This document shows positions 1 through 17,250 of a DNA stretch of 31,270 bases, piece after piece (position 1 is the stretch's first letter; each line of letters opens with the position of its first letter). The notes below the pieces were generated by a model. That model searched no databases and was not told the DNA's origin. It saw nothing but the letters and a program-made list of their open reading frames with translations. This DNA is from a virus. Location: positions 1-31,270 of IMG/VR virus record IMGVR_UViG_3300034198_006514. One strand, given 5' to 3'. The translations under genes were made by a program, and so were the position numbers.

Positions 1-216
1 AGAGAGAAATACAAGATATTAATTTATATAAGTCCTTATTATTAGTTTTTAATAGATTAGTATTAATATATTTATTATATTTATTATATATAGTATTACT
101 GTAAAAGCTTTTAATTAGACATAACTCTATCCGCATAGTTCCCCTGATTTGAAAATATATATTTACTCACAAAGATAATATTATATCCTAAGTTTAACTA
201 TCTGTCAAATGAGAAA
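1..216. other. AT-rich non-coding stretch at the left edge
   Basis: This stretch lies downstream of the last leftward gene. It is very AT-rich, with runs built from TTATTATAT-like units around 60-95. I find no open frame with a ribosome binding site on either strand, and no hairpin followed by a T-run that would serve as a clear terminator for the leftward transcripts. It may be the end of the early transcription unit or lead into a further region outside the window. Confidence 0.5.
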
Positions 217-552
217 TCAGTCGTCTTCATCATAATCATTTTCAAAAATGGAGGCAAGATCTTCTAGCGGGTAAGTGTAAAGCATGACAAGCACCTTGCA
301 GTCTTCATCTTCATTGGAGACGTATTCCCATACCGGAACAAATCCCGCCTTTGTTAGAAGCTTAACGAGGGTTTTCTCATCGTCTATGACATTCCAAATA
401 AAGACTTTTACAGGACTACCATCATCATCTGCTCTTGCCTGTTGGATGCCTTCCATGAAATCATAGATTTCTCTTACTGTTTTTGGGTTTCCTTCATAAC
501 CAGCAGACAGCTCAATCATTGAGCAGGTGTAGTTTAGGCCATGTTGGTTCAT
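217..552 (-). CDS. Acidic 111-residue protein of unknown function
   Basis: This protein has no family I recognise. It is strongly acidic, especially in the last 10 residues (a run of Asp and Glu), with a mixed alpha/beta pattern of hydrophobic strands (VKVFIWNV, CKVLVMLYTY) that suggests a small globular domain. The start is supported by AAGGA about 8 bases upstream of ATG. It is the last gene of the leftward arm and lies 16 bases after the primase gene, so it is probably co-transcribed with it. A role in replication or as a DNA mimic is possible from acidity and position, but this is only inference. Confidence 0.8.
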   Translation of the reverse strand: MNQHGLNYTCSMIELSAGYEGNPKTVREIYDFMEGIQQARADDDGSPVKVFIWNVIDDEKTLVKLLTKAGFVPVWEYVSNEDEDCKVLVMLYTYPLEDLASIFENDYDEDD

Positions 553-568
553 ACGAATATCCTTTTTT

Positions 569-1336
569 CTATCTTCCGTTTGTTAAAAAAGACTGTATTT
601 GTGAGTCGTTATATTCTTTTGGATCAAGATCACTTACAATGCTTGTAACACGATCAAAGAAAACAGTTGCGTTTTGCCTAAAAGCCATTGATTCTCGTAA
701 TTTGTCGTTATCAAGCCAGATCGACAAGTAAAAAAACATCTTCGACAAGGCCGACAGACGATCTCGTCCAATGTGAGAGCCCCAAAGAGGCATTGCTGTG
801 GTTTGGCGTGATACCTTTATGGCAGATATTAAGTCTTCTGTCAAGACACAGCTGCCATTATCCACAACATTTTTGCCTTTAATTACGTGAAAAACGTCCT
901 CGGACTGGCCTCGTGTGAGATACTTCGGGGCTGCTGGGTTCTTCGAGAACGACCTTCCTTGGTAGAAAAGAAGCTCAAACCCATCCCCATACACAGGAAA
1001 AATCAGCCTTTCTTGTAGATCGCTCCACATAAAGTTATGGTCAGCTATTTCATTGTCTGTTATCCCATATTTAGACAGCCAAGCACATACATCTGAAGGA
1101 AGAGCCAACGAAGCGTCATATGGAAGACGAACAACACCGGCCTTTAGATCAGCAGCGTCCCGATCAAGAAGACGTTTCTCAATGTCTCGAAGTGGGATGT
1201 TGTCTGAAGCAACGTAATAACCGCAGCTCCAGCACCACATGTGCCCATCATCAAAGACACCGAGATTGTTTCCTTTTCGGTCTCCACCTTGCTCCCTACA
1301 AGAAGGACAAGGCTCGTTTTTCTCCCACTGTGACAT
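569..1336 (-). CDS. Stand-alone DNA primase (zinc ribbon plus TOPRIM)
   Basis: The protein is a primase that would make RNA primers for lagging-strand synthesis. The sequence shows an N-terminal zinc ribbon with four cysteines (C10, C13, C35, C38) and an aromatic-rich spacer (MWCWSCGY). It continues into a TOPRIM-type core with acidic E167/D168 after a hydrophobic strand and a D209-x-D211 pair, the usual metal ligands. At 255 residues it matches the primase half of T7 gp4-like proteins; the RecA-type helicase half is absent, so a separate helicase is expected elsewhere. The start ATG lies one base after the TAG of the upstream gene, and GGGGT precedes it, so translation is probably coupled. 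Confidence 0.85.
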   Translation of the reverse strand: MSQWEKNEPCPSCREQGGDRKGNNLGVFDDGHMWCWSCGYYVASDNIPLRDIEKRLLDRDAADLKAGVVRLPYDASLALPSDVCAWLSKYGITDNEIADHNFMWSDLQERLIFPVYGDGFELLFYQGRSFSKNPAAPKYLTRGQSEDVFHVIKGKNVVDNGSCVLTEDLISAIKVSRQTTAMPLWGSHIGRDRLSALSKMFFYLSIWLDNDKLRESMAFRQNATVFFDRVTSIVSDLDPKEYNDSQIQSFLTNGR

Positions 1337-1337
1337 A

Positions 1338-2105
1338 CTACCCCGCTATTTGTTTTTGGATAAGCTCAGCAAGAGGGTTGATTGGGGGTGTAGTCAACAT
1401 CGAAGCCACACCAGAGCAATCATGCACCTCACCTGTCACACGATCATTTCCCCAACCTGTGCGCGATACCGTAGTCTTTCTCCGTTCTTCCACAATCGCT
1501 GCCAGCTTCTGTAATGAGGGAAGAAACGAATCAAAGCTAAGGAAATAGCCGTCCTTCTCAGGGCTCTTTTTCTTGATTTCTTCATCCCAATCCCCGTTTA
1601 GTTCTTCGTAACAGCAGAAGCGAAACAGGAGGGTGTAAATACCAATAAGGTATGAGTTATCTTGCCAACGCTCGTCTGCCTCAACAACAAAGGTCTGCGA
1701 ACCACAATCTACAGGCCGGTGAAAAATCGTAGGTTTAAAGCCGTTATGTTTTTCTACAGGAACACCAATCCTATCCCAGTTTGCAAGGAACTTTTCTAAG
1801 GGGACTACTGGAAGACGCACGGAAAGGAGTGTCCTGCTCTTTTCATACGACTGTGTGCTGTTGTCCCATTCAAACCCATAGATCTTGTAAGGTGTCTGAT
1901 TAAACTCGGTGGAATGGAGAGCATCTGAGAAATAATCACGACACTTAGCCGGAAGCATAATTTCAACAAACTTGCCGTCGTTCGTCTCATTGACAAAGGC
2001 AAATTTAATGGGCTGCGACTGGGCTATTTCAGAATACCCATACTCGTTTTTTGGGAGGACAAAAGGAACAAAAGCATGGTTAGTCGCGGTCATTGTTGTG
2101 CTCAT
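1338..2105 (-). CDS. Unknown 255-residue protein, co-transcribed with primase
   Basis: I do not recognise a family. The protein is mixed alpha/beta with no signal peptide or membrane segment. The frame is open back to an ATG at 2129, but the ATG at 2105 has AAGGGA about 6 bases upstream and is preferred. Both starts overlap the end of the preceding zinc-ribbon gene. The C-terminus carries a Thr/Pro-rich stretch before a final helix. Its place directly before the primase suggests a replication or recombination accessory role (for example a single-strand-binding-type protein), but no motif proves this. Confidence 0.75.
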   Translation of the reverse strand: MSTTMTATNHAFVPFVLPKNEYGYSEIAQSQPIKFAFVNETNDGKFVEIMLPAKCRDYFSDALHSTEFNQTPYKIYGFEWDNSTQSYEKSRTLLSVRLPVVPLEKFLANWDRIGVPVEKHNGFKPTIFHRPVDCGSQTFVVEADERWQDNSYLIGIYTLLFRFCCYEELNGDWDEEIKKKSPEKDGYFLSFDSFLPSLQKLAAIVEERRKTTVSRTGWGNDRVTGEVHDCSGVASMLTTPPINPLAELIQKQIAG

Positions 2106-2274
2106 CAGCTTCCCTTTCAGTGTCATCATTGGAAATAAACGGCTCGTTTACCGGCACATCATCAGAAATATAACTAAAACAATTATCACAAAGATCAATC
2201 ATCTCCCCCGTCGCGATGGATTTACGAACACTCTCACGATTGCTTAGTGCGTTGTTGCAAGAAAGGCAGCGCAT
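2080..2274 (-). CDS. Small zinc-ribbon protein (64 aa)
   Basis: Two cysteine pairs, CLSC near residue 3 and CDNC near residue 29, are spaced as in small treble-clef or zinc-ribbon knuckles, followed by an acidic tail rich in Asp, Glu and Asn. This arrangement is common in phage-encoded nucleic-acid-binding or adaptor proteins. The gene begins shortly after the ATP-grasp gene ends and its 3' end overlaps the start of the next gene, indicating an operon with translational coupling. The exact function is unknown. Confidence 0.75.
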   Translation of the reverse strand: MRCLSCNNALSNRESVRKSIATGEMIDLCDNCFSYISDDVPVNEPFISNDDTEREADEHNNDRD

Positions 2275-2285
2275 GTAGTTCCTAA

Positions 2286-3056
2286 TTAGTTATTATTAAG
2301 TGCTTGTTGGATTGCGCTCACATATCGTGAGACTGTCGTTCCCTCAAGGCCAGGGGCTGTATTCACTTCAAGAACATAGGCCTTACCTTCATGTTCGTTC
2401 CAGATAACGTCAACGCCTCCAAAGTCAAGGCCAAGCGCAAGCACAGCAAGACGTGCCTGTTCTTTTACGTCATCAGGAACTGTAATGCCTTCTCGGCAAA
2501 ATACCCAACCATTTTCCTCTGTGCGTATCTTTGAGTTTGACTCTGCTCCTTTCCTCCTTTTCTTCTGTTGAGCATCAAAGACAACCCCGTTACAAACGTG
2601 AACGCGGAACTCCGCTTTCTTGGGTTTGTATTTGGTATACAAGGGACAGGCTTGGAACTCCTCTGGGCTTGACATAAGAACAATTCCCTGTCCTCGTGTT
2701 CCTGTCAGGGTTTTACGGCCCACAACAGTTGTCCCTTCAGACAGCCATTGGGCTGCTACGCTGCTGACCGTAGTTGCTTCAGGACAGCGCACTTCCTTGG
2801 CTATAAGGTGAGCAAAAGCTTTCTTCTTGTTGACAGCAAGCCCCACCTTCTCTGGAGGGTTAAGCCAGCGGCTACCTGCTGCAACAGCCTTGCCAAACCA
2901 AGCCGGCATAGTGCCGTTACCCCAGTTTAAAATGACATCCCAAGGCCGTGGGCGGTATTTTCCTGTAGGGAAAACACGAAACGACCCAGTTGCCTTGGCA
3001 ATGTTTCTTGCCCCTTGTGAGGACATCTTATACGGAAAAACAACAAGACGTGGCAT
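2286..3056 (-). CDS. ATP-grasp ligase of the phage amide-bond cassette
   Basis: The protein has the layout of an ATP-grasp carboxylate-amine ligase. It shows a lysine-rich segment near residues 77-79, a lid with V-x-x-K and a glycine-rich loop (113-126, TLTGTRGQG), a strand with E149-R151, and the metal site D216 plus E230-x-N232. Such enzymes activate a carboxylate as acyl-phosphate and join it to an amine. The 256-residue length fits a RimK/YheC-type core with a short N-terminal domain. The start has AAAGGAA just upstream. It is the last of six neighbouring amide-chemistry genes, so it probably works in the same pathway, which is inference. Its substrate cannot be read from the sequence. 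Confidence 0.88.
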   Translation of the reverse strand: MPRLVVFPYKMSSQGARNIAKATGSFRVFPTGKYRPRPWDVILNWGNGTMPAWFGKAVAAGSRWLNPPEKVGLAVNKKKAFAHLIAKEVRCPEATTVSSVAAQWLSEGTTVVGRKTLTGTRGQGIVLMSSPEEFQACPLYTKYKPKKAEFRVHVCNGVVFDAQQKKRRKGAESNSKIRTEENGWVFCREGITVPDDVKEQARLAVLALGLDFGGVDVIWNEHEGKAYVLEVNTAPGLEGTTVSRYVSAIQQALNNN

Positions 3057-3078
3057 TTAGTTCCTTTCTTTTTTAAAC

Positions 3079-3095
3079 ATTACAAGGTTTGTAAC
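3079..3095. promoter_or_regulatory. Palindrome TTACAA-N3-TTGTAA, copy 1
   Basis: The palindrome has spacer GGT and sits in the 47-base gap 23 bases upstream of the ATP-grasp start. It is one of ten related palindromes between 3079 and 11731. Confidence 0.7.
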
Positions 3096-3103
3096 TTAAC
3101 AGC

Positions 3104-4483
3104 TTAGTGCATTGCTTGACGACGCACCTCTTCCACATCTCTATTGTTGACTGCAATAAAGACATCCGTGACCATAATCGAAAAGCCACTATTATCTGGC
3201 ATACGCTGGATTCCACGAATAGTTCCCTCAAGAATGTCAGCGTCCATCAAAGAGGCTACCCGTTCTTTGCCCGCAGTAAATCCTTTAACTTCCCACGTAG
3301 ACTCAGCCAGAACCGGTATACCCGTGATACAATACTGGGGCTGTTTCTTAGAGGTAGAGTAGAAGTCAATGGGCATCCACTGAAGCTTCTCGCCCACACG
3401 AAAAGACGTTTTAGACAACGGAGAAGTAACCGAATCCGGAAACATCTCTGCCTTTGTCTTCACTGGCTTTGTTTGATTAGCCGCGTGGTAGTTGGGAGCA
3501 CTTGGCGGCGGAAGATATGCCGGAGGTGGGGTATACGCAGCCGGTTTAGATATCGGCGTGACGTTACTCTTGCTCTTGAAAGGAACAGCCGGTGGTTCCG
3601 GAGCTTCCTCCATCTTACGCCAAACACCATTGACGAACTCCCAGCCTTCTCGAATATCGCCTTCTTTGTTTACCGTAGGTTCCACTTTGGGAACGGGAGA
3701 TTTATCCTCAACAACATCCTCGTATCCCTCCCAAGCAGAGCCGTATCCCCTGTAACTGTAAGTGCGAGTCAGGGGGGACTTATACTTGACCCGCTTGACC
3801 ACATCCCCAGCCAGATCTATACACAGATAGGTAAACGCAGGAAGTTCCTCAAAAACCGGAACTGTTTCCTTGTTTCTGTCCAAAATCCAGTGCATCATCT
3901 TGGGCTCGGAGGCAAACATCATCCGGTTAAATTGCTTTTGTGCCGCAATCCAAAGAGGACGATCATGGTTTCGCGCAATGTTGAGGGTCTTTTGCTTAAG
4001 ATCATACCAGACAATAGCATAGGCTCCCTCAAGCTGTTCAAGAACATCCAAAGTATCATAGGAAGCAAGAGCAACTGTCAGTCCGTGGCTGTCTACCTCC
4101 TTGCTTTTTGCCTCTTTACCAAAGGCCTCCAGATTTGAGATGAAGCCATTATGGACAAGCACAATATCACCGTGCTCAAAAGGATGGGCGTTTGTCGTGT
4201 TCCGCTTACCAAACGTGGCAAAGCGATTATGACCAAAGATAATAGGGTCACAGTCCTTTGCTGCATTGTCAAGCCACGGCATCACACCTTGGGCACGGAA
4301 CAGGCCAAAAGGATCACCCTCTATCTTACGAAGATCGTAGTTGCCATCCCGCATAACACGAACAATACCGGTGCCGTCTGTTCCACGAAGACTATCTCCA
4401 ATAAGTGCTTGTTTGAAGATGTCAAGATCACGAACAAACAGACCACCAGCACTGAAACAAGAAAGACCAACAATACCACACAT
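3104..4483 (-). CDS. Class II glutamine amidotransferase with C-terminal extension
   Basis: The N-terminus begins Met-Cys-Gly-Ile-Val-Gly, so Cys2 becomes the Ntn-hydrolase nucleophile after Met removal. The family signatures are visible in order: RGTDGTGI (33-41), GHNRFAT (about 84), NAHPF and VHNG (about 98-113). The domain (roughly 1-240) would hydrolyse glutamine and release ammonia. A Pro-rich linker (about 295-340, with PPPAYLPPPSAP) leads to an unassigned C-terminal domain of about 110 residues. At 459 residues it lacks the isomerase or synthetase modules of GlmS, PurF or AsnB, so it probably passes ammonia to a separate ligase; the two glutamine-synthetase-fold ligases nearby are the natural partners. 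The start has AAGGAAAG upstream. Confidence 0.92.
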   Translation of the reverse strand: MCGIVGLSCFSAGGLFVRDLDIFKQALIGDSLRGTDGTGIVRVMRDGNYDLRKIEGDPFGLFRAQGVMPWLDNAAKDCDPIIFGHNRFATFGKRNTTNAHPFEHGDIVLVHNGFISNLEAFGKEAKSKEVDSHGLTVALASYDTLDVLEQLEGAYAIVWYDLKQKTLNIARNHDRPLWIAAQKQFNRMMFASEPKMMHWILDRNKETVPVFEELPAFTYLCIDLAGDVVKRVKYKSPLTRTYSYRGYGSAWEGYEDVVEDKSPVPKVEPTVNKEGDIREGWEFVNGVWRKMEEAPEPPAVPFKSKSNVTPISKPAAYTPPPAYLPPPSAPNYHAANQTKPVKTKAEMFPDSVTSPLSKTSFRVGEKLQWMPIDFYSTSKKQPQYCITGIPVLAESTWEVKGFTAGKERVASLMDADILEGTIRGIQRMPDNSGFSIMVTDVFIAVNNRDVEEVRRQAMH

Positions 4484-4527
4484 AGAACTTTCCTTTTTAC
4501 AGAGTTAAAAATTAATTAGAGTTAGGG

Positions 4528-5796
4528 TTAGTTAGGGGGAACATACGGAACAATCTCGTCTTGCCACCACGCATTCACAGACTGATTAATGGAGCCTAAG
4601 GAGGCAGTGGGAGGAGGAACGTTGATTGCCATGCCGGTAGAAACAGGAGGCACTCCAGTTACCTCACCAACCAAAGCAGAAACCTCATCAAAAGACATCG
4701 TAGAGAGTGATTTTTTCTCCCCTTGTTTTGCTTTCTGTTTTAGCCAGTAGGCTGCCGCTTCCTCTTTAGTGCGAAGAACAAAAGCACTAACTCCACTGTT
4801 TTTAGGGAACTGATGTTGTGGATAGAACAGAGGATGGTTGTTAATCAGGCACTCTTTGGCAAAAGAGAATCCAGTGGACAGCTCCTGCTTCATGCTGTAA
4901 GTGTTGGGTAATACCGTAGTAAGCCCCCTAAACACAAGACGCTGGAAGTCTGCATAATTAGAAAATGTATTCATCTCCTTGATATAGTCAGTGATACATC
5001 CACGAGACAAGCGAACAGAAGCTTCTTTTAACGCAAGAATCAAGTCAACCCAAAGAGCAACTTTACCCGCATCCCATTCCCCATTAAGGTGCCGAAACTC
5101 CATTGTGCCGAGATCACGAAGACGCCCAATGTTCAAGGCCGAGTATTTTGACCAACGCTCAAACAATGTCGGGGTTATGTCATTCCCATTGCCGGTGTCG
5201 TTGAGGAGTAGGTTGATATCATTTGTCAAAAGCGTCCGTGTTAGAGGAACACAGAAAACACTTTTCTTCCTGTCCTCACAAGAGAAGCGAAACAAAGAGG
5301 ACTCAAACACAGTGTAAAGAAGAATAAGGTTTCCCAGTTCTGCCGTAGTCAGATCACCAACATCCAGATGGACATGGATACTGGTTCGCCAACTGAAAGA
5401 AGGCTTTTTCCCCAAACAACTGGACAAGAAAAGATACAAACTTGCCAACGAGGAACGCACGTCAGAAGCGTGAAGAATATGAGAAACAAACTCCCGCCCG
5501 TGGTTTCTTAAAGAACCATCGTTCTGGATAAGCCAATCAGGACTAGCCTTCGAGTCTAATGTAAAAGAAACATCCTCAATTTCAACCTCAAGGCCAACAT
5601 GGCCGTCAGTGCTGCGTAAAACGGGAATGTTTTCACGAAAAGCAGTAAAAGCATTCTCTTTTCGGCGATAGCCCCAATACCCACGAAGGTGTGTTTCCCA
5701 ACCATCTGGGACACGGGACGCGTGAATATCTTTTGCCGAAAGCAGCCCATAGATAGTGTTAATCTTTAGGGGAGGTTTTGATTTAATTGTCACCAT
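4528..5796 (-). CDS. Glutamine-synthetase-fold amidoligase (Amidoligase_2-like)
   Basis: The protein carries the metal and ATP ligand pattern of the amidoligase branch of the glutamine synthetase/COOH-NH2 ligase fold. It shows GLEVEIE (G68, E70, E72), NDGSLRNHGREF (D93, E102), a histidine pair SIHVHLD (H141, H143) and EFRHLNGEWD (R235, H236). These enzymes use ATP to form an amide between a carboxylate and an amine. The core ends near residue 300; the C-terminal about 120 residues are helical then Pro/Ser-rich and may bind a partner. AGGAGA precedes the ATG. It lies between the class II amidotransferase and a gene of unknown family, both on the same strand with short gaps. Confidence 0.85.
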   Translation of the reverse strand: MVTIKSKPPLKINTIYGLLSAKDIHASRVPDGWETHLRGYWGYRRKENAFTAFRENIPVLRSTDGHVGLEVEIEDVSFTLDSKASPDWLIQNDGSLRNHGREFVSHILHASDVRSSLASLYLFLSSCLGKKPSFSWRTSIHVHLDVGDLTTAELGNLILLYTVFESSLFRFSCEDRKKSVFCVPLTRTLLTNDINLLLNDTGNGNDITPTLFERWSKYSALNIGRLRDLGTMEFRHLNGEWDAGKVALWVDLILALKEASVRLSRGCITDYIKEMNTFSNYADFQRLVFRGLTTVLPNTYSMKQELSTGFSFAKECLINNHPLFYPQHQFPKNSGVSAFVLRTKEEAAAYWLKQKAKQGEKKSLSTMSFDEVSALVGEVTGVPPVSTGMAINVPPPTASLGSINQSVNAWWQDEIVPYVPPN

Positions 5797-5805
5797 GTTC
5801 TCCTG

Positions 5806-6516
5806 TTAGGCCTCTACTGTAATTCCTTGTGGGGTAAAATAATCAATATACTCCTGCCTCAAAAGCGGCTCAGTAACAGCAATCCGCCCCTCATTAATGA
5901 TCTGTCCCGACGGAATATCTTTGAACCAGATTGACCGTAGTGATGAGGCAACACCAAGAGACACAGCAAACTGTGGGCTCAAGGCAAAGCCAAACACATT
6001 GGGATCATTGTCCATCTTGCTCAGTCCATGTGACAAAGACCAGAAACGATCATTGCGAGACAGCAGTATTGTCCAATCTGCTACGGAACCTTCAAAGGCA
6101 TAGGCTGACCAGAAAGAAGGAATAACATGTTTGAATCCCAGCAAACCACGAACAGCTGAAGTTAGGCCGAACGATTCCATTGTTCCCGAACAGATGCCTT
6201 TTTTGTTCTGGCGAAGGGGTATCCGAGAAATATGGACAGCACCTTTCCGGTGGTTGCACCATCCCTCTACCGGAAACCAAAGCTCAAAGAGAACTTTGTC
6301 CTCAGTTAAAGCCACCTTTGCAGGTGTGTCGCCATAGCTTCGCAGTGTAAAATACCGCTTGTTCCCCGAACTTGTAAGATCAATACCAGAAACAGCACGA
6401 AGAACAGGAAACCGCTCGGTCTTGTAGTCCTGCGTAAGGACAACCGTGTCGTTTAAATAAAGACGCAGGTCATCCAGAGTTGCCTCTGGAAAAAGGCTGT
6501 CAATATGCTGTAGCAT
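5806..6516 (-). CDS. Unknown 236-residue protein inside the amide-ligase cassette
   Basis: I do not recognise a family. The chain is about 236 residues, mixed alpha/beta, rich in aromatic residues (Trp in VEGWCNHRKG, SVADWTILL, NDRFWSLSHG), with no signal peptide or membrane helix. The frame is open to a TTG at 6540, but ATG at 6516, one base after the stop codon of the upstream ligase gene, is the more likely coupled start. Lying between two COOH-NH2 ligase genes, it is probably a substrate carrier, partner subunit or additional enzyme of that pathway, or the modified target. That is inference from position only. Confidence 0.8.
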   Translation of the reverse strand: MLQHIDSLFPEATLDDLRLYLNDTVVLTQDYKTERFPVLRAVSGIDLTSSGNKRYFTLRSYGDTPAKVALTEDKVLFELWFPVEGWCNHRKGAVHISRIPLRQNKKGICSGTMESFGLTSAVRGLLGFKHVIPSFWSAYAFEGSVADWTILLSRNDRFWSLSHGLSKMDNDPNVFGFALSPQFAVSLGVASSLRSIWFKDIPSGQIINEGRIAVTEPLLRQEYIDYFTPQGITVEA

Positions 6517-6517
6517 A

Positions 6518-7423
6518 TTAGGCAAAAGCCCCCGTGCCAAAGTAAGCCGGAGAGTCGCATTTCTTCTTCATCAAGGTTTTGTCCAACGTGCGATAAACAA
6601 GACCAAAGCAGTGCAGCATCTCCCAAGCAATTTTCGTGTTGCCTGCATCAATAGCTCCTTTGATGCTGGCGCCGTAATCCTCCAAAAGAAACACGGCGTT
6701 CGGGGTATTCGCAACTTTAAAGGCCGTGACAACACCATCATAAGCCCACGACATCAGTTCGGATGAGGCAGTCCAGAAGTTAGACAGCACGCGGTATTCG
6801 ATACCGTAGTCTTTATCACGGAAAGCACCACCCTTACCATAAAGCTCTTTCCGGCGTGTGTCAACATCAATAAACAGACTAGGCAAGCCCAACGTAAGGT
6901 CGAGTGCCTTAACTATCGGCTCCTTGTCAAAAACAGACAGCTTGCTTGCAGGCTTGTCGTTCTTGTTAAAGGAAACGTGAATGTGGCCACCAGCTGTTCG
7001 CATTGTTTGGAGCAATGCGCTGCCAGTCTCCTTGGGAGAAGGATTAGCCGTGCGTGTCCACACACAGAAGTCAGGCTCACAACCAAGTTCCTGTGCTTGA
7101 CGGGAGCTAAGCTGTTCCTTGGTAAAAAGCATGGACGGAGCAATGGCAATGTCCAGACCCAACTCTGCCGTAAGGCTATCCAAGTAACCACGCATCGTTG
7201 TCAACTGGGATACAAAGGACTCCTTGGTTCCGGCGGGAGGAACGTTATACTCCAACATAACATTATCCTCCTGAACAGCGTATCCCTTACCCAGTGTAGC
7301 AACAGGTTTGGGTTTATGCTTTGTGCCACCAATAAGACCAACCGCAGGCACCGGAGTTTTGGTGACACGAGAAGTTAAAAAGACCTCTGTATCAGTTCCG
7401 ACTTGCAAAAGTTCAAAAGACAT
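6518..7423 (-). CDS. phiEco32-type COOH-NH2 ligase (type 2)
   Basis: The sequence matches what I know of the phiEco32-like amidoligase type 2 family, a glutamine-synthetase-fold ligase found mainly in phages. Visible signatures are VGTDTEVF (D11, E13), QEDNVMLEYN (E52, E58), GGHIHVS (145-151), the double arginine with YGKGGA (R190, R191, Y195-A200), and DYGIEYRVLSNFW (E209, R211). The length of 301 residues fits a complete domain. The family is predicted to join an amine to a carboxylate using ATP, and its natural substrate is not established. The start follows AAAAGGAAA. A TTACAA palindrome lies 22 bases upstream of the ATG, so this gene may be regulated with the others carrying that site. 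Confidence 0.9.
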   Translation of the reverse strand: MSFELLQVGTDTEVFLTSRVTKTPVPAVGLIGGTKHKPKPVATLGKGYAVQEDNVMLEYNVPPAGTKESFVSQLTTMRGYLDSLTAELGLDIAIAPSMLFTKEQLSSRQAQELGCEPDFCVWTRTANPSPKETGSALLQTMRTAGGHIHVSFNKNDKPASKLSVFDKEPIVKALDLTLGLPSLFIDVDTRRKELYGKGGAFRDKDYGIEYRVLSNFWTASSELMSWAYDGVVTAFKVANTPNAVFLLEDYGASIKGAIDAGNTKIAWEMLHCFGLVYRTLDKTLMKKKCDSPAYFGTGAFA

Positions 7424-7444
7424 AGATTTCCTTTTAAATAAAAT

Positions 7445-7460
7445 GTTACAAGGTTGTAAC
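7445..7460. promoter_or_regulatory. Palindrome TTACAA-N2-TTGTAA, copy 2
   Basis: This copy has spacer GG and perfect 7-base arms including the outer G/C. It lies 22 bases upstream of the phiEco32-type ligase start, between it and the class I amidotransferase gene. Confidence 0.7.
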
Positions 7461-7470
7461 GCTTAGTGGG

Positions 7471-8178
7471 TTACTTCAAAAGAAAAGCAGAAACAAGTTG
7501 ACGCGAATACTCGGCAAACTGACCGCTGATGTTCGCCCACTCGGGGTGCCCTTGTATTACAAGGCATCTTGTCTTTTTAAAGAAGCCAAACTCTACCTCA
7601 TGGGGAGGTATGCGAACCGTCTCGGATTCCTCCTCAAAATAACAGCGAGAGTGGTCGGCTTGGTGTGCCGTGTATCCAAGAAGGGTAAACTCATTTTCAG
7701 GTAAATCAAACGGCCACATCATTTGGTGATGGCAAGACGTAACATCTATTTCAATGTCCTGCCAAGCTTTTGGCACAGGTGAAGATTCAAGCTCGGGCAG
7801 AAAGACCTTGTGGTTCTGGTTGTGGTTGGTCACATGCTGAATCAACGAGCCGCCAGAAAGAACACACCCTAACTGAGCACCACGACAAACACCAACAATA
7901 CCAGCGCCGACTGCCACTGCCCGTTTAAAAATTGCTGCTTCAAGAGCATCCCGATTGTTATCAGAAGGCTCCGTCATTTCATTTCGTTTTGCGTTGTAAA
8001 GATTGGGGCTAACATCAGTGCCGCCCTCAAAGACAACAACGCAGTCTTTGCTGACTTGCCCCATGTGTTGAAAGATCATTGACGCACTGAAAAGTGAGCC
8101 AAAGACACGACCGGTGTGAAATCCCCGATCAACGATGAGTAAAGTGTTGTGTTTCTGGTCTTTACTTGGAGCTGCCAT
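7471..8178 (-). CDS. Class I glutamine amidotransferase / gamma-glutamyl hydrolase-like
   Basis: The chain shows the class I (triad) amidotransferase pattern: FEGGTDVSP (50-58), the nucleophile elbow GVCRGAQLG with C98, SCHHQMM (148-154) as in the gamma-glutamyl-GABA hydrolase family, and the His-Glu pair in GHPEW (H211, E213). It would hydrolyse glutamine or a gamma-glutamyl bond, either to supply ammonia or to trim a gamma-glutamyl intermediate as PuuD does. I chose ATG 8178 because it lies one base after the stop of the upstream membrane-protein gene, has GGAAGGA upstream, and begins just before the first core strand. The frame is open to 8346, but that extension overlaps the membrane-protein gene and is basic and low in complexity. 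It is the first enzyme gene of the cassette. Confidence 0.87.
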   Translation of the reverse strand: MAAPSKDQKHNTLLIVDRGFHTGRVFGSLFSASMIFQHMGQVSKDCVVVFEGGTDVSPNLYNAKRNEMTEPSDNNRDALEAAIFKRAVAVGAGIVGVCRGAQLGCVLSGGSLIQHVTNHNQNHKVFLPELESSPVPKAWQDIEIDVTSCHHQMMWPFDLPENEFTLLGYTAHQADHSRCYFEEESETVRIPPHEVEFGFFKKTRCLVIQGHPEWANISGQFAEYSRQLVSAFLLK

Positions 8179-8179
8179 G

Positions 8180-8404
8180 TTAATGTAGTGTCCTTCCGGT
8201 TGCTTGTTTCTTGATTCCAGGTCGCGGTATTTCTTTCCAAGTAGCGGCTGATGGTTTAGGTGCAAGTGGAGCCGGCGGCGGATACCGTAGTGGCTTGGCT
8301 TGCCGTGGCTTACGCCGACGCTCGGGCGGAGTGCTAGGTGGAGCAAAGAACGTAAACAAATACGCCCCGCCTAACAGAACAAACAACAAAAGAAAAGCGT
8401 CCAT
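8180..8404 (-). CDS. Small single-span membrane protein with Pro/Arg-rich tail (74 aa)
   Basis: Residues 3-20 form one hydrophobic segment (AFLLLFVLLGGAYLFTFF). It is followed by a Pro/Arg/Lys-rich cytoplasmic-looking tail with several PPxP-like runs. No family is recognised. ATG 8404 lies four bases after the previous stop; a GTG at 8419 is an alternative start. Its stop is one base from the class I amidotransferase start, so the two are probably translated together. It could tether the cassette to the membrane, but nothing in the sequence proves that. Confidence 0.65.
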   Translation of the reverse strand: MDAFLLLFVLLGGAYLFTFFAPPSTPPERRRKPRQAKPLRYPPPAPLAPKPSAATWKEIPRPGIKKQATGRTLH

Positions 8405-8408
8405 GTGT

Positions 8409-8582
8409 TTACTGACCACTTTTCTTGTCTGCTTTGGTTACACCCTTGTAACCCGATTTGGTTTTGGGTTGTGGTGTTTCCATGAGGCAGTCATGACCGC
8501 GTGGATAATTGACAGCCTTTTGCAGCACCAACAGCTGCGAGAAAGACGCCAGTGTTTTACCTGTTGCCGCTTGATGTTTCAT
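8409..8582 (-). CDS. Small basic protein (57 aa), unknown
   Basis: The ATG overlaps the stop codon of the preceding 53-residue gene (ATGA), a typical coupled start. The protein has an amphipathic N-terminal half and a Lys-rich C-terminus (KSGYKGVTKADKKSGQ). No family is recognised. The frame contains one degenerate TTACAA-type palindrome at 8437-8452. Support rests on overlap geometry and the otherwise complete packing of this arm; a shorter form starting at Met34 is possible. Confidence 0.5.
   Translation of the reverse strand: MKHQAATGKTLASFSQLLVLQKAVNYPRGHDCLMETPQPKTKSGYKGVTKADKKSGQ
8437..8452. promoter_or_regulatory. Palindrome copy 3 (one mismatch)
   Basis: The sequence reads GTTACAC-CC-TTGTAAC on the plus strand with a single arm mismatch. 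Unlike most copies it lies inside a small gene, but it is still 33 bases upstream of the next start codon (8404). Confidence 0.5.
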
Positions 8583-8740
8583 TCGTCAAGATCTCCAAAC
8601 TTACAGCACATGACATCGAGTTCATCTGAAGAACCAGCACAGTCCAGCATATTCCATTGTGCCCACTCAGCCGTGTTTTCCTCGAACGGGTTTTCTTCAA
8701 CAAAAACATCCGTGTCGTCTGCATCTAAGATATAAGCCAC
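8579..8740 (-). CDS. Small acidic protein (53 aa), GTG start, unknown
   Basis: A GTG start at 8740 has AAGGA about 7 bases upstream. The product is highly acidic (Asp/Glu throughout, e.g. DADDTDVFVEENPFEEN) with three cysteines, two of them adjacent (Cys45-Cys46). No family is recognised. Its stop overlaps the next start, and it follows the 94-residue gene by about 29 bases. Small acidic early phage proteins often bind host factors, but no target can be inferred here. Confidence 0.6.
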   Translation of the reverse strand: MAYILDADDTDVFVEENPFEENTAEWAQWNMLDCAGSSDELDVMCCKFGDLDE

Positions 8741-8769
8741 GTTTTATTCCTTTTCAGTAGGTGTAAAGT

Positions 8770-9054
8770 CTAGTCTTTGAGCATCTTGACTTCTTTGAGT
8801 TCCTGTGTTTCCCCATCAAAAACAAGGCATATGTGATCATGAACAGATTTTGTGTCACGATATATCTCAGGGCCTGCAAGGTGGACATACCGTAGTAAAT
8901 CGGGTTTTGGTTCAGGCTTTACCCGATATATACCATCCTCCTTCCAGAGTGGACGGTTGTTGTTACAGTTTACCCATTCTGAAACCGCATAATATTGAAT
9001 GATTGCGCCTTGTGCCCAAAGGACAATCAAGTCGTGGTGTTTGTGTTTTTTCAT
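8770..9054 (-). CDS. Conserved phage-type protein of unknown function (94 aa)
   Basis: The N-terminus MKKHKHHDLIVLWAQG, the following W-rich segment and the central IYRVKPEPKP resemble a widespread family of small phage and prophage proteins of unknown role that begin KHKHxDLIxxWAxGA and carry a YRxKP motif. The last third has a beta-type LVFDGETQELKEVKML end, also typical. The length is normal. The ATG is 11 bases after the stop of the upstream gene; the ribosome binding site is weak, suggesting coupling. Confidence 0.75.
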   Translation of the reverse strand: MKKHKHHDLIVLWAQGAIIQYYAVSEWVNCNNNRPLWKEDGIYRVKPEPKPDLLRYVHLAGPEIYRDTKSVHDHICLVFDGETQELKEVKMLKD

Positions 9055-9065
9055 GGTTGTGTATG

Positions 9066-9353
9066 CTAAAACCCATTCCTTAAAGTATGGTTACTAACAC
9101 GAAAACCCGAAACAAAGTTCGGGTCAGCTCTGGTAGTGCTCATGTGTAAGGTATGCGGTGAATCTCCTTTCATTTGTCCGTGTTTTAAAAAAGTAAGCTG
9201 GTCTTTCTCGCTCATTGTTGACACTTGCAAAGCGATGTTAGTCAACTCTGATTGTGTTTTAATACGGCTTTGCAAGCTAAACACAATTGACCGTTGACGA
9301 CGATCTAACTTCAAGGTGTTACACACCCTTTGAATCTGTTCGTGCGTTCGCAT
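9066..9353 (-). CDS. Unknown basic protein (95 aa)
   Basis: No family is recognised. The N-terminal half is strongly helical with many Arg, Gln and Lys residues (LKLDRRQRSIVFSLQSR); the C-terminal half is irregular and rich in Ser, Thr, His and Asn. AGGGGA lies about 6 bases before the ATG, and a TTACAA palindrome is centred about 37 bases upstream. The helical basic region could bind nucleic acid, which is inference. Confidence 0.7.
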   Translation of the reverse strand: MRTHEQIQRVCNTLKLDRRQRSIVFSLQSRIKTQSELTNIALQVSTMSEKDQLTFLKHGQMKGDSPHTLHMSTTRADPNFVSGFRVSNHTLRNGF

Positions 9354-9381
9354 AGAATCCCCTCTAGCGAAACTGTGCTGT

Positions 9382-9398
9382 ATTACAAACCTTGTAAC
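9382..9398. promoter_or_regulatory. Palindrome TTACAA-N3-TTGTAA, copy 4
   Basis: This copy has spacer ACC and lies 29 bases upstream of the 95-residue gene, in a gap of about 140 bases. Confidence 0.7.
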
Positions 9399-9452
9399 GC
9401 AACACAGATAAAAAAAGGGTTACGCCTAATTTCCCTTGTGCTGTAGTAGGCC

Positions 9453-9467
9453 GTCTAAATCTTAGAC
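9453..9467. other. Short inverted repeat in intergenic gap
   Basis: GTCTAA-ATC-TTAGAC is a perfect 6-base inverted repeat in the gap between the 27- and 95-residue genes. There is no T-run after it on either strand, so I do not call it a terminator. Confidence 0.35.
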
Positions 9468-9492
9468 AGTCAGCCGATTAAATAAACAAAAC

Positions 9493-9576
9493 CTAATCCC
9501 AGAAATCATCTGAGAAAACAGCAGCAACACTGAACCACAAAAGCCCAACGATAAACAACCACAAAGATTCTGCCAT
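9493..9576 (-). CDS. 27-residue hydrophobic peptide, probable membrane protein
   Basis: The ATG at 9576 is three bases after the stop of the 79-residue gene. The peptide is almost entirely one hydrophobic helix (LWLFIVGLLWFSVAAVF) with an acidic end (SDDFWD), and has no charged residue inside the helix. This is the profile of tiny phage membrane peptides that bind or inhibit host membrane proteins. It is too short for homology and is supported by composition and coupling only. Confidence 0.55.
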   Translation of the reverse strand: MAESLWLFIVGLLWFSVAAVFSDDFWD

Positions 9577-9579
9577 AGG

Positions 9580-9819
9580 CTAAGGCTCCCAATTAAGATG
9601 GAAACAAACAACGTCGAGAGCCTCCGAAAGGCTCCAAGCCATACGATCTAAAGGCCGTGGAGCACCAGACAGTTCAATTGAAAACCGAGTGCCAGTATTG
9701 CGAAGAACAGCAACACGAACACGACCAACAAAAACCCAAATCTGACGAGCCTGTCCGGCGTGCTGTATTGCTGTTGTGTGTAAATCTTCGGGGATAATCC
9801 CCAAACCCTTTGCTGCCAT
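9580..9819 (-). CDS. Unknown 79-residue protein
   Basis: Start ATG 9819 is chosen because GAGGAG lies about 9 bases upstream; the frame is open further up, but that part would run through the palindrome at 9842-9858. The product looks like a small beta-rich domain (IWVFVGRVRVAVLRN) with a C-terminal helix (SLSEALDVVCFHLNW). No family is recognised. The stop is almost adjacent to the start of the 27-residue membrane peptide. Confidence 0.65.
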   Translation of the reverse strand: MAAKGLGIIPEDLHTTAIQHAGQARQIWVFVGRVRVAVLRNTGTRFSIELSGAPRPLDRMAWSLSEALDVVCFHLNWEP

Positions 9820-9841
9820 TTTAGAATCTCCTCTAAAAAGA

Positions 9842-9858
9842 GTTACAAAGTTTGTAAC
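9842..9858. promoter_or_regulatory. Palindrome TTACAA-N3-TTGTAA, copy 5
   Basis: This copy has spacer AGT and perfect 7-base arms, and lies 23 bases upstream of the 79-residue gene. Confidence 0.7.
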
Positions 9859-9863
9859 ACCAG

Positions 9864-10019
9864 TTAAATAAACAAAAAACTCCACCAACGCAAACGACAC
9901 CGCCGGTTATTTAAACCAGCAAAGTGTCGATAATACGCAAATGGAAACTTCCGATCTGCCTTTTTATTCAGATCAATATCATGCTTGACCTGTTCCAAAA
10001 CGTCAGCACTGATAAACAT
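9864..10019 (-). CDS. Small basic protein (51 aa), unknown
   Basis: ATG 10019 is preceded by GTGAGG with a short 4-base spacer. The N-terminal half is an amphipathic charged helix (DVLEQVKHDIDLNKKADRK); the C-terminus is rich in Arg, Trp and Phe and could sit at a membrane surface. Two TTACAA palindromes lie 28 and 57 bases upstream of the start, the same relation seen at better-supported genes, which adds weight to this being a gene. No family is recognised. Confidence 0.55.
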   Translation of the reverse strand: MFISADVLEQVKHDIDLNKKADRKFPFAYYRHFAGLNNRRCRLRWWSFLFI

Positions 10020-10046
10020 AAAACCTCACTCGTAGTTATACTGCCT

Positions 10047-10063
10047 GTTACAAACCTTGTAAC
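10047..10063. promoter_or_regulatory. Palindrome TTACAA-N3-TTGTAA, copy 6
   Basis: This copy has spacer ACC and perfect 7-base arms, 28 bases upstream of the 51-residue gene. It is paired with copy 7. Confidence 0.7.
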
Positions 10064-10075
10064 GCTACCAAAACC

Positions 10076-10091
10076 GTTACAACCTTGTAAC
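10076..10091. promoter_or_regulatory. Palindrome TTACAA-N2-TTGTAA, copy 7
   Basis: This copy has spacer CC and perfect 7-base arms, about 28 bases centre to centre from copy 6. This is the only tandem pair in the set. Confidence 0.7.
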
Positions 10092-10193
10092 CACGCAAAC
10101 GCTGAACAAACCTGTGCCGATACAAGTTAGACTGGCGAGGTAGCAAAAAGTTTCAAAAAAGAACCAAAAAAAGACCAAAAAACAGTAAAAAAT

Positions 10194-10313
10194 TTACTCT
10201 TTTCTGGAGAGCCAAGTTACCGCAATTCCGCTATATAACGCTTCCTCACACGCTTCTAACATCATCATATCAGCCCGTTCAAACGACAACAACCGGATAT
10301 AATATTTAGGCAT
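10194..10313 (-). CDS. 39-residue peptide, unknown
   Basis: ATG 10313 has AGGAGA about 8 bases upstream, one of the better ribosome binding sites in this arm. The peptide is one helix with three consecutive methionines at positions 16-18 and an acidic centre (EACEEALYSGIAVTW). No family is recognised. The following roughly 55 bases (minus strand) are pyrimidine-rich and carry T-runs (TTTTTT), which may reduce read-through. Confidence 0.55.
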   Translation of the reverse strand: MPKYYIRLLSFERADMMMLEACEEALYSGIAVTWLSRKE

Positions 10314-10382
10314 AGTCTAATCTCCTGTTCTACCTGCCAATCTAACCTTTTAGCTACCCGTTTACTTGATTTTGTTACCGCT

Positions 10383-11210
10383 TTACCCGTTTACTACCTG
10401 TTGCGTGGTTGTTTCCGTTGTTTCCGTTTGTTTGCCTTCCGCTTCCGGCTTTTTGACAATGTCGGTAACATTATCGGACTGTTGCTTTTTAGCCGGTGTT
10501 GCCTTAGCTTTTGCTACCGCTTCCGCTTTCGCGGCATGTTGCTCCGCTTTGTTGCAAAGGTCAGCGATTTTCTTGCCAAGATTCGCATAGAAAGGCTCCG
10601 ACATTTTGCCCAATTCAGCGGCAAAGGTTTCACATTGGCGCACAATGGCAATCGGTGTTGCACCTTGCTTAATGGTAGCCAAGAGCGCACCTTGAAGCAT
10701 TGCCATTGATTCCGACACGCCCGACACGTTAAGCCGATTCAAAATCTTCGTGCGGTCTTCCGCTTGAATCTTTTTAATCGTGCCCGCCCGACTCGTGCCG
10801 GTTCCGGCTGTATCGCCCTTGTTTGCCATGTCGCGACATTTCGAGATAAACTGGTGATAATCGCCTTCCAGTTGACCAAGAACCAACATCGCATGAGCGT
10901 CACGTTCTTTATGCGTGTCAGAGGAACTGTTCAGATGTTCCACGTGAAACGCTTTAAACACTTGGCGCGCTTCCGATTTACGAACCTTTGCAGACCCTTC
11001 GGATTTTCCAGCTTTTGTCAGTGCCGCTTCATAGCCCGCGAGCCAATCGGCCGACTTCTGTTCATCTGCGTGAAGTTCAAAAGCCCTCGACAAGATTACA
11101 TCTCGTGTAACTTTGTCTGCTACGCCTTGCGCCTCTAGAATCTTCGCAGTGTCCGATTCTGCCATGATTGCGAAATCAGAAGAAAGGTTCGGTTTGATGA
11201 TATTTGCCAT
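10383..11210 (-). CDS. First gene of the leftward arm; unknown 275-residue protein
   Basis: I do not recognise a family. The protein is almost all helical, with a basic middle (GTIKKIQAEDRTKILNRL) and a long low-complexity tail (about 220-275) rich in Ala, Lys, Gln, Glu and Thr that is probably disordered. TAAAAGGAAA precedes the ATG, and a TTACAA palindrome lies 32 bases upstream. As the promoter-proximal gene of an early-type arm it may be an abundant DNA-associated or host-takeover protein. That is inference from position and charge pattern. Confidence 0.8.
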   Translation of the reverse strand: MANIIKPNLSSDFAIMAESDTAKILEAQGVADKVTRDVILSRAFELHADEQKSADWLAGYEAALTKAGKSEGSAKVRKSEARQVFKAFHVEHLNSSSDTHKERDAHAMLVLGQLEGDYHQFISKCRDMANKGDTAGTGTSRAGTIKKIQAEDRTKILNRLNVSGVSESMAMLQGALLATIKQGATPIAIVRQCETFAAELGKMSEPFYANLGKKIADLCNKAEQHAAKAEAVAKAKATPAKKQQSDNVTDIVKKPEAEGKQTETTETTTQQVVNG

Positions 11211-11241
11211 GATAGTTTCCTTTTAAGTTTGATCGGATGAT

Positions 11242-11258
11242 GTTACAAAGTTTGTAAG
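11242..11258. promoter_or_regulatory. Palindrome TTACAA-N3-TTGTAA, copy 8
   Basis: This copy has spacer AGT with one outer-base mismatch (G instead of C), 32 bases upstream of the 275-residue gene. Confidence 0.7.
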
Positions 11259-11450
11259 TTTTTGCGACCAAGTAAAAGGTAGCTAACAGGTTAGACTAGC
11301 TTCACATTGTTAAAGAACAAGACCGCAGCATCCGACGTGCGGCACCGTCGCCCACCAAACGCGCAACACGCCTTGCGTGTATGCAGTCCGCTTGTATAAG
11401 TAAGACCACCCAGTTTCGAAAAGGTTCAATCTTTTTTCATTTATTTTTGT

Positions 11451-11586
11451 TGTATTTTTACCACAGGTCAAGCGCACTGTATTGGTGCGGATTACAAGCT
11501 TGTAACCCTTTGACCAGTAGGGGATTACGTAAGCGCTCACTTAGAATACCCGATAAAAACAGTCGGATTTTCCTGTATTTTTACCA
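11451..11586. repeat. 13-base direct repeat in control region
   Basis: TGTATTTTTACCA occurs exactly at 11451-11463 and again at 11574-11586, 123 bases apart, with unrelated flanks. On the minus strand the unit is TGGTAAAAATACA, which resembles an extended -10 element but has no matching -35 at normal distance. It could be an operator pair or a leftward promoter element. Confidence 0.5.
11491..11506. promoter_or_regulatory. Palindrome TTACAA-N2-TTGTAA, copy 9
   Basis: This copy has spacer GC, making it a fully symmetric 14-base palindrome around AAGCTT. There is no start codon of a credible gene within 35 bases, unlike copies 1-8. Confidence 0.65.
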
Positions 11587-11715
11587 TTAAAAGGGGGTAG
11601 GGGGGGAAAACGGCTAGAGAGCGAAATAGTTTCCAGACTGCTTATACCGATAACACAAAAATAAAGGGTCTACTCCTAAATAATTACTGTCTTGGGGGAA
11701 TGTATTTATATTAAT

Positions 11716-11731
11716 GTTACAAACTTGTAAC
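11716..11731. promoter_or_regulatory. Palindrome TTACAA-N2-TTGTAA, copy 10
   Basis: This copy has spacer AC and perfect 7-base arms. It lies in the control region about 300 bases upstream of the rightward promoter, with AT-rich flanks. Confidence 0.65.
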
Positions 11732-11777
11732 AACTTTAAGTGAACTCTATTTGGCGCTCGGAGAAAACCGACTCCTC

Positions 11778-11811
11778 GCTTACGCGGGGATAAGCAGACA
11801 CCCCGCTTAGC
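11778..11811. other. GC-rich hairpin / alternative stem-loops
   Basis: GCGGGG (11784-11789) pairs exactly with CCCCGC (11801-11806). Overlapping it, GCTTA (11778-11782) can instead pair with TAAGC (11791-11795), which itself can pair with GCTTA at 11805-11809. Mutually exclusive stems inside an AT-rich, gene-free region suggest a structured RNA leader or an origin hairpin. No T-run follows. Confidence 0.45.
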
Positions 11812-11829
11812 CAGCTACAGACAACAGTC

Positions 11830-11957
11830 TAGACACTTAACGTAATTACGTAATTACGTAATACATAATATAAATCTAATATAATACATAATTACTAAAT
11901 ACATAATTACTATATATATATATACTATATACTATATACTGTATATATTAGACACTT
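11830..11957. repeat. AT-rich tandem-repeat block, possible origin
   Basis: The block contains CGTAATTA repeated head to tail (11841-11862), two copies of a 15-base unit AATACATAATTACTA (11883-11912), a TA run and an 8-base TATACTAT period (about 11913-11940). It is bounded by TAGACACTT direct repeats at 11830-11838 and 11949-11957. Easily melted repeats next to divergent promoters are typical of phage replication origins; the origin role is inference. Confidence 0.5.
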
Positions 11958-12008
11958 TATTTTCAACTAAGTTCAATTCTTTCTTAGAAATATATTTTCT
12001 CTTAGATC

Positions 12009-12037
12009 TTGACTTTAGTTTCGATTTGTGTTATAAT
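12009..12037 (+). promoter_or_regulatory. Strong sigma70-type promoter for the rightward arm
   Basis: The -35 box TTGACT (12009-12014) and the -10 box TATAAT (12032-12037) are separated by exactly 17 bases, close to the bacterial sigma70 consensus. Transcription would begin near 12044, about 50 bases before the tRNA-Gly gene, and could read through the tRNAs into the packaging genes. A host-type promoter means the host RNA polymerase could transcribe this arm without a phage polymerase. Confidence 0.85.
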
Positions 12038-12095
12038 ATTAGGACTGAGTGAAATCTTATCTAGATTTCTCTCTAAAAAAAATAATTTATAAAAA

Positions 12096-12169
12096 GCGGG
12101 TTTGGTATATAGGTTGTGCCTTAGCCTTCCAAGCTAAAGAACTGGGTCCGAGTCCCAGAATCCGCTCCA
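12096..12169 (+). tRNA. tRNA-Gly (anticodon TCC), CCA encoded
   Basis: The acceptor stem GCGGGTT pairs with AATCCGC (one G-T pair). The anticodon stem TTAGC/GCTAA encloses the loop CTTCCAA with anticodon TCC, reading GGA. The T stem CTGGG/CCCAG is perfect, discriminator T is followed by a genomic CCA, and total length is 74 bases. The T loop reads TCCGAGT, so position 55, normally T (pseudouridine), is C. The rest of the cloverleaf is intact, with a weak D stem. Confidence 0.92.
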
Positions 12170-12179
12170 CCCAATTCTT

Positions 12180-12256
12180 GCCTCTGTAGCTCAGTCAGCA
12201 GAGCACTTCTCTTGTAAAGAAGAGGTCGGGGGTGCAATTCCACTCCAGGGGCTCCA
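12180..12256 (+). tRNA. tRNA-Thr (anticodon TGT), CCA encoded, odd T arm
   Basis: The acceptor GCCTCTG pairs with CAGGGGC (one T-G pair). D-arm sequence TAGCTCAG...GAGC is canonical, and the anticodon stem CTTCT/AGAAG holds the loop CTTGTAA with anticodon TGT, reading ACA. CCA is encoded. The T arm departs from the rule: the loop region reads TGCAATTC, with G at the position of T55, and the arm has a mismatch and one extra base (77 in all). It may still fold with a longer stem (GGGGTG/CACTCC), or may be decaying. Confidence 0.85.
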
Positions 12257-12329
12257 CAATTCGATTTAAGCGAGTTTGACCTGAATCCGATACCGAGATA
12301 TACCCAACCCCTTCAAAGGTCCCCAAAAC

Positions 12330-12659
12330 GTGATTAAACGATTCCTAGCCACCCTTCTGATTGTCTGTCTCCTGCCTTTTCAAGCTTCTGCTCAATCTAT
12401 TGATGCTGACACTTGTATTCAGGTAGCCAACATCATGTATCAAATTGGGGAAGGAAAAAAGGAAGGAATCAAGTTGGAACAACAACTTAACTCTATGAGG
12501 GAAGCTGTTCCAGCTGGGGCTTTGAGGAAGTTCTACGAACAGTTGATTAAAGAAGCCTACCAAACTAAGAAAAGCCCTGAAGACTTTGCTCAGGACTTTG
12601 CCAATCGGTGTTTTAACGTTCGCGGTGACATTTCAAAACTAATGGGAAAGAAAACTTAA
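12330..12659 (+). CDS. Small secreted or periplasmic protein (109 aa)
   Basis: The GTG start has AAAGGT 9 bases upstream. Residues 1-21 are a clear Sec signal peptide: MIKR, a hydrophobic core FLATLLIVCLLPF, then an ASA-Q cleavage site. The mature part (about 88 residues) is helical, with two cysteines (DTCIQ and NRCFN) that could form a disulphide in the periplasm. I recognise no enzyme motif. An exported protein just before the terminase genes is unusual; roles in lysis, superinfection exclusion or envelope protection are all possible. Confidence 0.8.
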   Translation: MIKRFLATLLIVCLLPFQASAQSIDADTCIQVANIMYQIGEGKKEGIKLEQQLNSMREAVPAGALRKFYEQLIKEAYQTKKSPEDFAQDFANRCFNVRGDISKLMGKKT

Positions 12660-12662
12660 AAT

Positions 12663-13289: not shown

Positions 13290-13309
13290 CTTAAAAGGAA
13301 CTGAGGATT

Positions 13310-13369: not shown

Positions 13370-13372
13370 GCG

Positions 13373-13648: not shown

Positions 13649-13661
13649 AGTTACAGCTGAT

Positions 13662-15161: not shown

Positions 15162-15166
15162 ACAGC

Positions 15167-17248: not shown

Positions 17249-17250
17249 GT

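Follow-up and report, generated by a model that had tools for sequence, protein, structure and literature searches.

Phage modules in which a phiEco32-type COOH-NH2 ligase is encoded beside other amide-bond enzymes were reportedly first proposed by Iyer et al. in 2009. The gene set has been annotated in UFV-P2 and other LUZ24-like phages (PMC3890496), and a Pseudoalteromonas phage paper described a 'peptidoglycan modification cassette' of seven genes, for which it put forward a role in preventing superinfection and which it listed in RIO-1, phiEco32, 7-11, PA11, tf, LUZ24, PaP3 and CW02 (PMC5498523). A 2025 paper on phage U17 made the same proposal with a possible additional role in preparing lysis (PMC11945000); in both papers the action on peptidoglycan is a hypothesis only. 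In SU10, a phiEco32 relative, the module is among the early genes, and mass spectrometry detected its ATP-grasp, glutamine amidotransferase and GGCT-like (YtfP/UPF0131) proteins (PMC4281155). Here we analyse a six-gene module in a stretch of viral DNA of 31,270 nucleotides (IMG/VR record IMGVR_UViG_3300034198_006514, positions 1 to 31,270; hereafter the window). It is almost certainly a phiEco32/LUZ24-type amidoligase ('peptidoglycan modification') module, an already described kind, in a version bearing a Peptidase C26-type protein and lying next to replication genes. With a probability of roughly 0.45, we suggest that the module attaches gamma-glutamyl groups and takes them off again in the course of assembling a peptide-like conjugate, with a cell-wall precursor as the probable acceptor.

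The four families that define modules of this type, namely a COOH-NH2 ligase, a second amidoligase, a class II glutamine amidotransferase (GATase) and an ATP-grasp ligase, occur together in the window. The gene set and its order recur in LUZ24, SCYZ1, phiEco32, Bas92 and UFV-P2, and RIO-1 has a related set. All six open reading frames (ORFs) lie on the minus strand, from 8178 to 2286, in the following order:

7471..8178, minus strand: G1, class I glutaminase-fold protein of C26 type, probably a gamma-glutamyl hydrolase (235 aa; PF07722, C98/H211/E213)
6518..7423, minus strand: CN, phiEco32-type COOH-NH2 ligase with a glutamine synthetase (GS)/glutamate-cysteine ligase (GCL) fold in its predicted model (301 aa; PF14395, phrog_3815)
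5806..6516, minus strand: U, conserved module protein of unknown function, mostly beta strands in its predicted model (236 aa; family hidden Markov model (HMM), phrog_11055/4877)
4528..5796, minus strand: AL2, Amidoligase_2, second GS-type ligase (422 aa; PF12224)
3104..4483, minus strand: GAT2, class II (N-terminal nucleophile, Cys2) glutaminase-fold protein with a C-terminal extension of ~220 aa of unknown type (459 aa; PF13522)
2286..3056, minus strand: ATPg, RimK-like ATP-grasp ligase (256 aa; phrog_2599)

The original prediction, a note made from the letters of the window, had placed a six-gene set on one strand at 2286-8178, with C98, H211 and E213 in the class I protein and Cys2 in the class II protein, and every ORF and residue was found exactly there. 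HMM searches (Pfam, PHROGs) confirmed the enzyme families (C26, COOH-NH2_lig, Amidoligase_2 and GATase_6, with RimK just under the cut-off), and with them three ATP-dependent ligases in a conserved amide-bond module. Its statement that it was aware of no experimentally established product agrees with the papers examined, in which we found no report of one. The junctions, described as short or overlapping, are indeed short, with successive gaps of 47, 1, 9, 44 and 47 bases; an overlap arises only if U starts at an upstream TTG (6540). Two points lie beyond the original prediction, namely that the set is the known phiEco32/LUZ24 cassette and that its C26 gene alternates with another family; the recognition of U as a core gene in this order and of the class I gene as gamma-glutamyl hydrolase-type refines it.

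The prediction that these genes travel together was borne out by neighbourhood comparison. Loci were gathered via the COOH-NH2 ligase from IMG/VR and phage records, and their ORFs were classed with purpose-built HMMs, which gave 139 distinct loci with enough flank. CN, AL2, GAT2 and the ATP-grasp ligase were present together in 133 of these 139, and thus the module is not a chance assembly. The order of the window, in which CN is followed by AL2, was seen in 103 loci. Most modules lie beside a primase gene, and the window shares both its order and its primase position with LUZ24 and phiEco32. More than 300 sequenced phage records carry the COOH-NH2 ligase, among them phages of Pseudomonas, E. 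coli and Vibrio, and in all phage records examined closely it lay within the module. A scan of genome contigs yielded 10 loci, all on metagenome-assembled contigs.

The product of G1 matched the Pfam profile Peptidase_C26 (PF07722) above cut-off (5.7e-18) and the GATase profile at only 0.026. Its triad C98/H211/E213 is kept in 95/95/100% of an alignment with 66 relatives, giving G1 both marks of a Peptidase C26 protein, the profile match and the Cys-His-Glu triad. The nearest solved chains are also of C26 type, including PuuD (6vtv), Lin1909 (3fij) and a 7d4r-type 'probable glutamine amidotransferase', and two NCBIfam models, gamma-Glu-GABA hydrolase and gamma-glutamyl-CDP-amidate hydrolase, matched below their cut-offs. 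For the PuuD equivalog the score was 25.7 against a cut-off of 266 bits; G1 may work like PuuD, yet it is not PuuD. Judged by these matches, G1 is probably a gamma-glutamyl hydrolase-type protein. A role as an ammonia source is doubtful, and G1 is probably not one, because the matches are to C26 and gamma-glutamyl hydrolases and not to ammonia-donating subunits.

Among the 103 loci with the order of the window, 48 had C26 only, 49 had only GGCT (gamma-glutamylcyclotransferase, PF06094), three had both and three had neither, so that 97 contained exactly one of the two. C26 generally lies just before CN, and GGCT occupies varied positions: on either side of CN, between GAT2 and the ATP-grasp gene, or after the latter. 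Bases 1-17423 of the window recur unchanged within a 50,174-base record, and no GGCT was found in that full record; conversely, no C26 was found in the full records of LUZ24, phiEco32, RIO-1 and Bas92. The described phage CVT22 also has C26 without GGCT. With 48 of the 103 loci alike, we treat the GGCT-less, C26-bearing module as a variant. Fisher's test on the anticorrelation gave p of about 6e-22 on raw counts with relatedness ignored, and it is presented here as a descriptive pattern without a claim of statistical significance. The nearly constant presence of one of two unrelated gamma-glutamyl-removing enzymes is a new clue to the module: it points to gamma-glutamyl groups as the likely chemistry, and the exchange suggests, without proving it, that removal of such a group is a needed step. 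As a side observation, the module of Leptolyngbya phage Lbo-JY46 (locus L016, 2754-6963) contains three class I glutaminase-fold proteins, and genes for nicotinate phosphoribosyltransferase and PRPP (phosphoribosyl pyrophosphate) synthetase lie just before it.

GAT2 matched GATase_6 (PF13522; 8.4e-17), with the glutaminase domain of GlmS as the nearest PDB chain, and its residues C2, R87, N112, G113 and D131 are kept in 99-100% of sequences (residue conservation was assessed in alignments with 66-92 relatives per enzyme, in which the catalytic residues were retained). Proteins of this kind are often named GlmS or GFAT, but only the N-terminal glutaminase part matches and the C-terminal sugar isomerase (SIS) domains are absent; comparison with Pfam, PDB and NCBIfam revealed no recognisable synthase domain in GAT2. 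A weak match to the EgtC model was obtained (8.3e-4). EgtC is a class-II-fold gamma-glutamyl hydrolase of ergothioneine synthesis, and by analogy the free-standing class II domain of GAT2 may be such a hydrolase, with ammonia supply still possible. In some modules (L023, L030, L054 and similar loci) AL2 is followed by another GAT2-like gene.

Turning to the ligases, CN matched PF14395 (3.6e-8) and phrog_3815 (1.5e-66), and residues E13, D53, E58, H147, H149, E209 and R211 are kept in 99-100% of relatives. Its predicted model, with a predicted local distance difference test score (pLDDT) of 91.6, adopts the GS/GCL fold; besides GS, its best matches include GCL, YbdK and gamma-glutamylmethylamide synthetase (GmaS) (E about 1e-5 to 1e-4, probability 1.00); template-modelling (TM) scores of 0.36-0.49 were moderate, as expected for a 300-residue enzyme compared with larger ones. 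AL2 matched PF12224 (6.1e-9), and residues E70, E72, E102, H141, H143, E233 and R235 are invariant among 88 relatives. In loci L050 and L063 a second AL2-like gene lies upstream. For ATPg the best family match was phrog_2599 (1.2e-74), and residues K77, E149, R151, K165, D216 and E230 are kept in 100% and N232 in 97% of relatives. It fell just short of the cut-off of the RimK profile PF08443 (3.2e-4; 20.8 versus 21 bits) and was below cut-off for the NCBIfam models MptN (3.9e-13) and RimK family (1.9e-9). 'RimK' is often used as its name, but it scored only 18.2 against the 331 bits demanded by the RimK/S6 glutamate ligase model NF007764.

No Pfam match was found for U, with no meaningful one in a repeat search, and tblastn gave no match in phage records. 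The family HMM recovered U in 99 of the 103 loci with the order of the window, and LUZ24 gp17, phiEco32 gp85 and RIO-1 gp12 are also members; therefore U is a core member of the module in this order. Its model, built on an alignment of IMG/VR and window sequences only, had a pLDDT of 84.5 and was rich in beta strands, and no PDB fold matched it with E<0.001. A likeness to a Tudor-like barrel had low TM-scores and a best E of 0.04, and was treated as noise. The best-kept feature in the alignment is the motif R-x3-RQ-x-x-(K/R)G, and no catalytic pattern was evident there. In locus L055 (10725-12362), U lies within an open frame of 545 residues, far longer than elsewhere, a possible fusion or domain gain.

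We infer the reactions, their order, the acceptor and the purpose of the module as follows. CN would activate a gamma-carboxyl group with ATP, as GCL and GmaS do, and join it to an amine; AL2 and the RimK-like ATP-grasp enzyme would form two further amide bonds; and GAT2 and G1, the latter replaced by GGCT in sister phages, would cut the gamma-glutamyl amide and release the finished product. PuuD, Cj1417 and EgtC cut gamma-glutamyl amides in cellular pathways, and by this analogy both G1 and GAT2 may do so. U might serve as a binding or scaffold subunit alongside the neighbouring ligases. That the module handles gamma-glutamyl groups we consider rather likely; a cell-wall acceptor is a more tentative assignment, favoured because the published proposals point there and because the D-Glu-gamma-meso-diaminopimelate (DAP) link, a natural substrate for such chemistry, would fit a peptidoglycan precursor peptide as the most likely acceptor.

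Several observations weigh against this scheme. In the CN tree the C26 and GGCT changes were few (4 and 5); there were 1-4 independent pairs, for which a sign test was not significant and had no power. C26 and GGCT coexist in 25 of 33 loci of other gene orders (those with GAT2 or the ATP-grasp gene as the core gene that follows CN), and since they usually coexist there, the two need not do the same step. A profile search of solved structures found none matching CN or AL2 by sequence, and none of the six gene products showed a recognisable murein-binding, transport or membrane domain.

The strongest rival, which we nevertheless consider rather unlikely, is a soluble gamma-glutamyl-protected metabolite (an amine, thiol or dipeptide), to which a GS-fold ligase would add the gamma-glutamyl group that C26 or GGCT then removes. 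The alternation of two unrelated gamma-glutamyl-cutting families suits it, as do the nearness of G1 to PuuD and gamma-Glu-CDP-amidate hydrolase, the fold that CN has in common with GCL and GmaS, the weak EgtC match of GAT2 and the glutaredoxin gene adjoining the RIO-1 module; clustering of neighbouring ORFs, however, gave mainly replication-type or uncharacterised families, and none of the conserved neighbours was recognised as a gene dedicated to making an amine or thiol. In a more specific form, somewhat less likely again, all glutaminase-fold proteins would cut gamma-glutamyl amides, C26 and GGCT would be interchangeable last steps, and the pathway would lead to a small diffusible compound undescribed in phages, which would make 'peptidoglycan modification' a misnomer in hundreds of phage genomes.

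Amino-acid tagging of a protein of the host or the phage, with ATPg as an S6-type glutamate ligase and C26 or GGCT trimming the tag, we regard as improbable. ATPg does fall within RimK-like families, but the RimK and MptN models were far below cut-off and the R2K_3 match was weak, and GGCT enzymes act on small substrates. Peptide tagging has been proposed by the Aravind group for phage R2K ATP-grasp ligases (PMC4431377, PMC7824862).

Slightly more improbable is the version of the original prediction, in which G1 and GAT2 are two true ammonia donors for the two GS-type ligases and carboxyl groups are amidated by the module. In its favour, GAT2 keeps the residues with which class II GATases bind glutamine, and GatD and AsnB-type GATases amidate peptidoglycan in Gram-positive bacteria. 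Against this, G1 matches C26 and not the GATase profile, GAT2 has no recognised synthase domain, GGCT, which makes no ammonia, replaces C26 in sister phages, and GS-fold enzymes such as GS can use free ammonia, which leaves the two different ammonia sources of that prediction in doubt. A DNA base modification shielding the genome from restriction would suit the primase adjoining most modules and the module-carrying phiEco32-type phages (L096, L322), which strongly resist restriction-modification without a known pathway (PMC11990801), but it is very improbable because virion DNA of the module-bearing phage tf is cut by RsaI, HpaI, EcoRV, SmaI and HaeIII (PMC3517423) and that of the LUZ24-like U17 by 11 of 16 enzymes (PMC11945000), the BASEL authors pointing instead to a dCTP deaminase and a nucleotidyltransferase.

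Beyond ATPg, the minus-strand arm of the window also carries these genes:

1338..2129, minus strand: U2, 263-aa protein of unknown function, encoded between module and primase (from the gene-order strings)
569..1336, minus strand: DNA primase-type gene flanking the module, context outside the pathway (phrog_47, 6.3e-23)

U2 had no match in Pfam, PHROG, PADLOC or NCBIfam, and about 20 window-type loci have relatives of it, at a place often held by GGCT elsewhere. Between the ATP-grasp gene and U2 (2080-2274, minus strand) lies a gene for a 64-aa zinc-ribbon-like protein with two CxxC pairs, with relatives in 12 examined loci. The plus strand carries tailed-phage genes for terminase, portal, major head and head-closure proteins, together with a 1094-aa ORF (22810-26094) without a PHROG match, and genes for tRNA-Gly(TCC) and tRNA-Thr(TGT) lie at 12096-12256 (plus strand), near the junction of the two arms. 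No PADLOC model of anti-phage defence matched, and a DNA similarity search of phage records found no near relative of the window.

Compared with the described phages, the window shares the order CN - U - AL2 - GAT2 - ATP-grasp - primase with LUZ24 and UFV-P2 (Bruynoghevirus-type, gp16-gp24); in LUZ24, however, GGCT follows the ATP-grasp gene and C26 is missing, whereas in the window C26 precedes CN and GGCT is missing. phiEco32 and Bas92 (gp86-85-84-83-80-77) have the same order and a U homologue, gp85, but they carry GGCT where the window has C26, their GAT2 and ATP-grasp proteins are longer, and extra small genes are present. The cassette of RIO-1 and PSA-HP1 has the same enzyme families beside a primase; its AL2 and ATP-grasp ORFs overlap, a glutaredoxin gene lies nearby, and the RIO-1 order, GGCT-GAT2-CN-U-AL2-ATPg, differs from that of the window. 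The module looks functional and is widespread in phages; the C26/GGCT exchange suggests simple enzyme assays, and Bas92 (PQ850610), an E. coli phage that carries the module and whose group was obtained on a K-12 laboratory host with restored O16 antigen, offers a laboratory model. Among cellular systems, the closest in logic are PuuA-PuuD of the gamma-glutamylputrescine pathway, Cj1417, a gamma-Glu-CDP-amidate hydrolase, and EgtA-EgtC of ergothioneine synthesis, with a similar logic in BtrJ-BtrG of butirosin. The similarity is at the level of fold and family only, below curated cut-offs and without a common operon, and the likeness lies in a gamma-glutamyl group that is first added or carried and later taken off by a hydrolase of C26 or class II fold.

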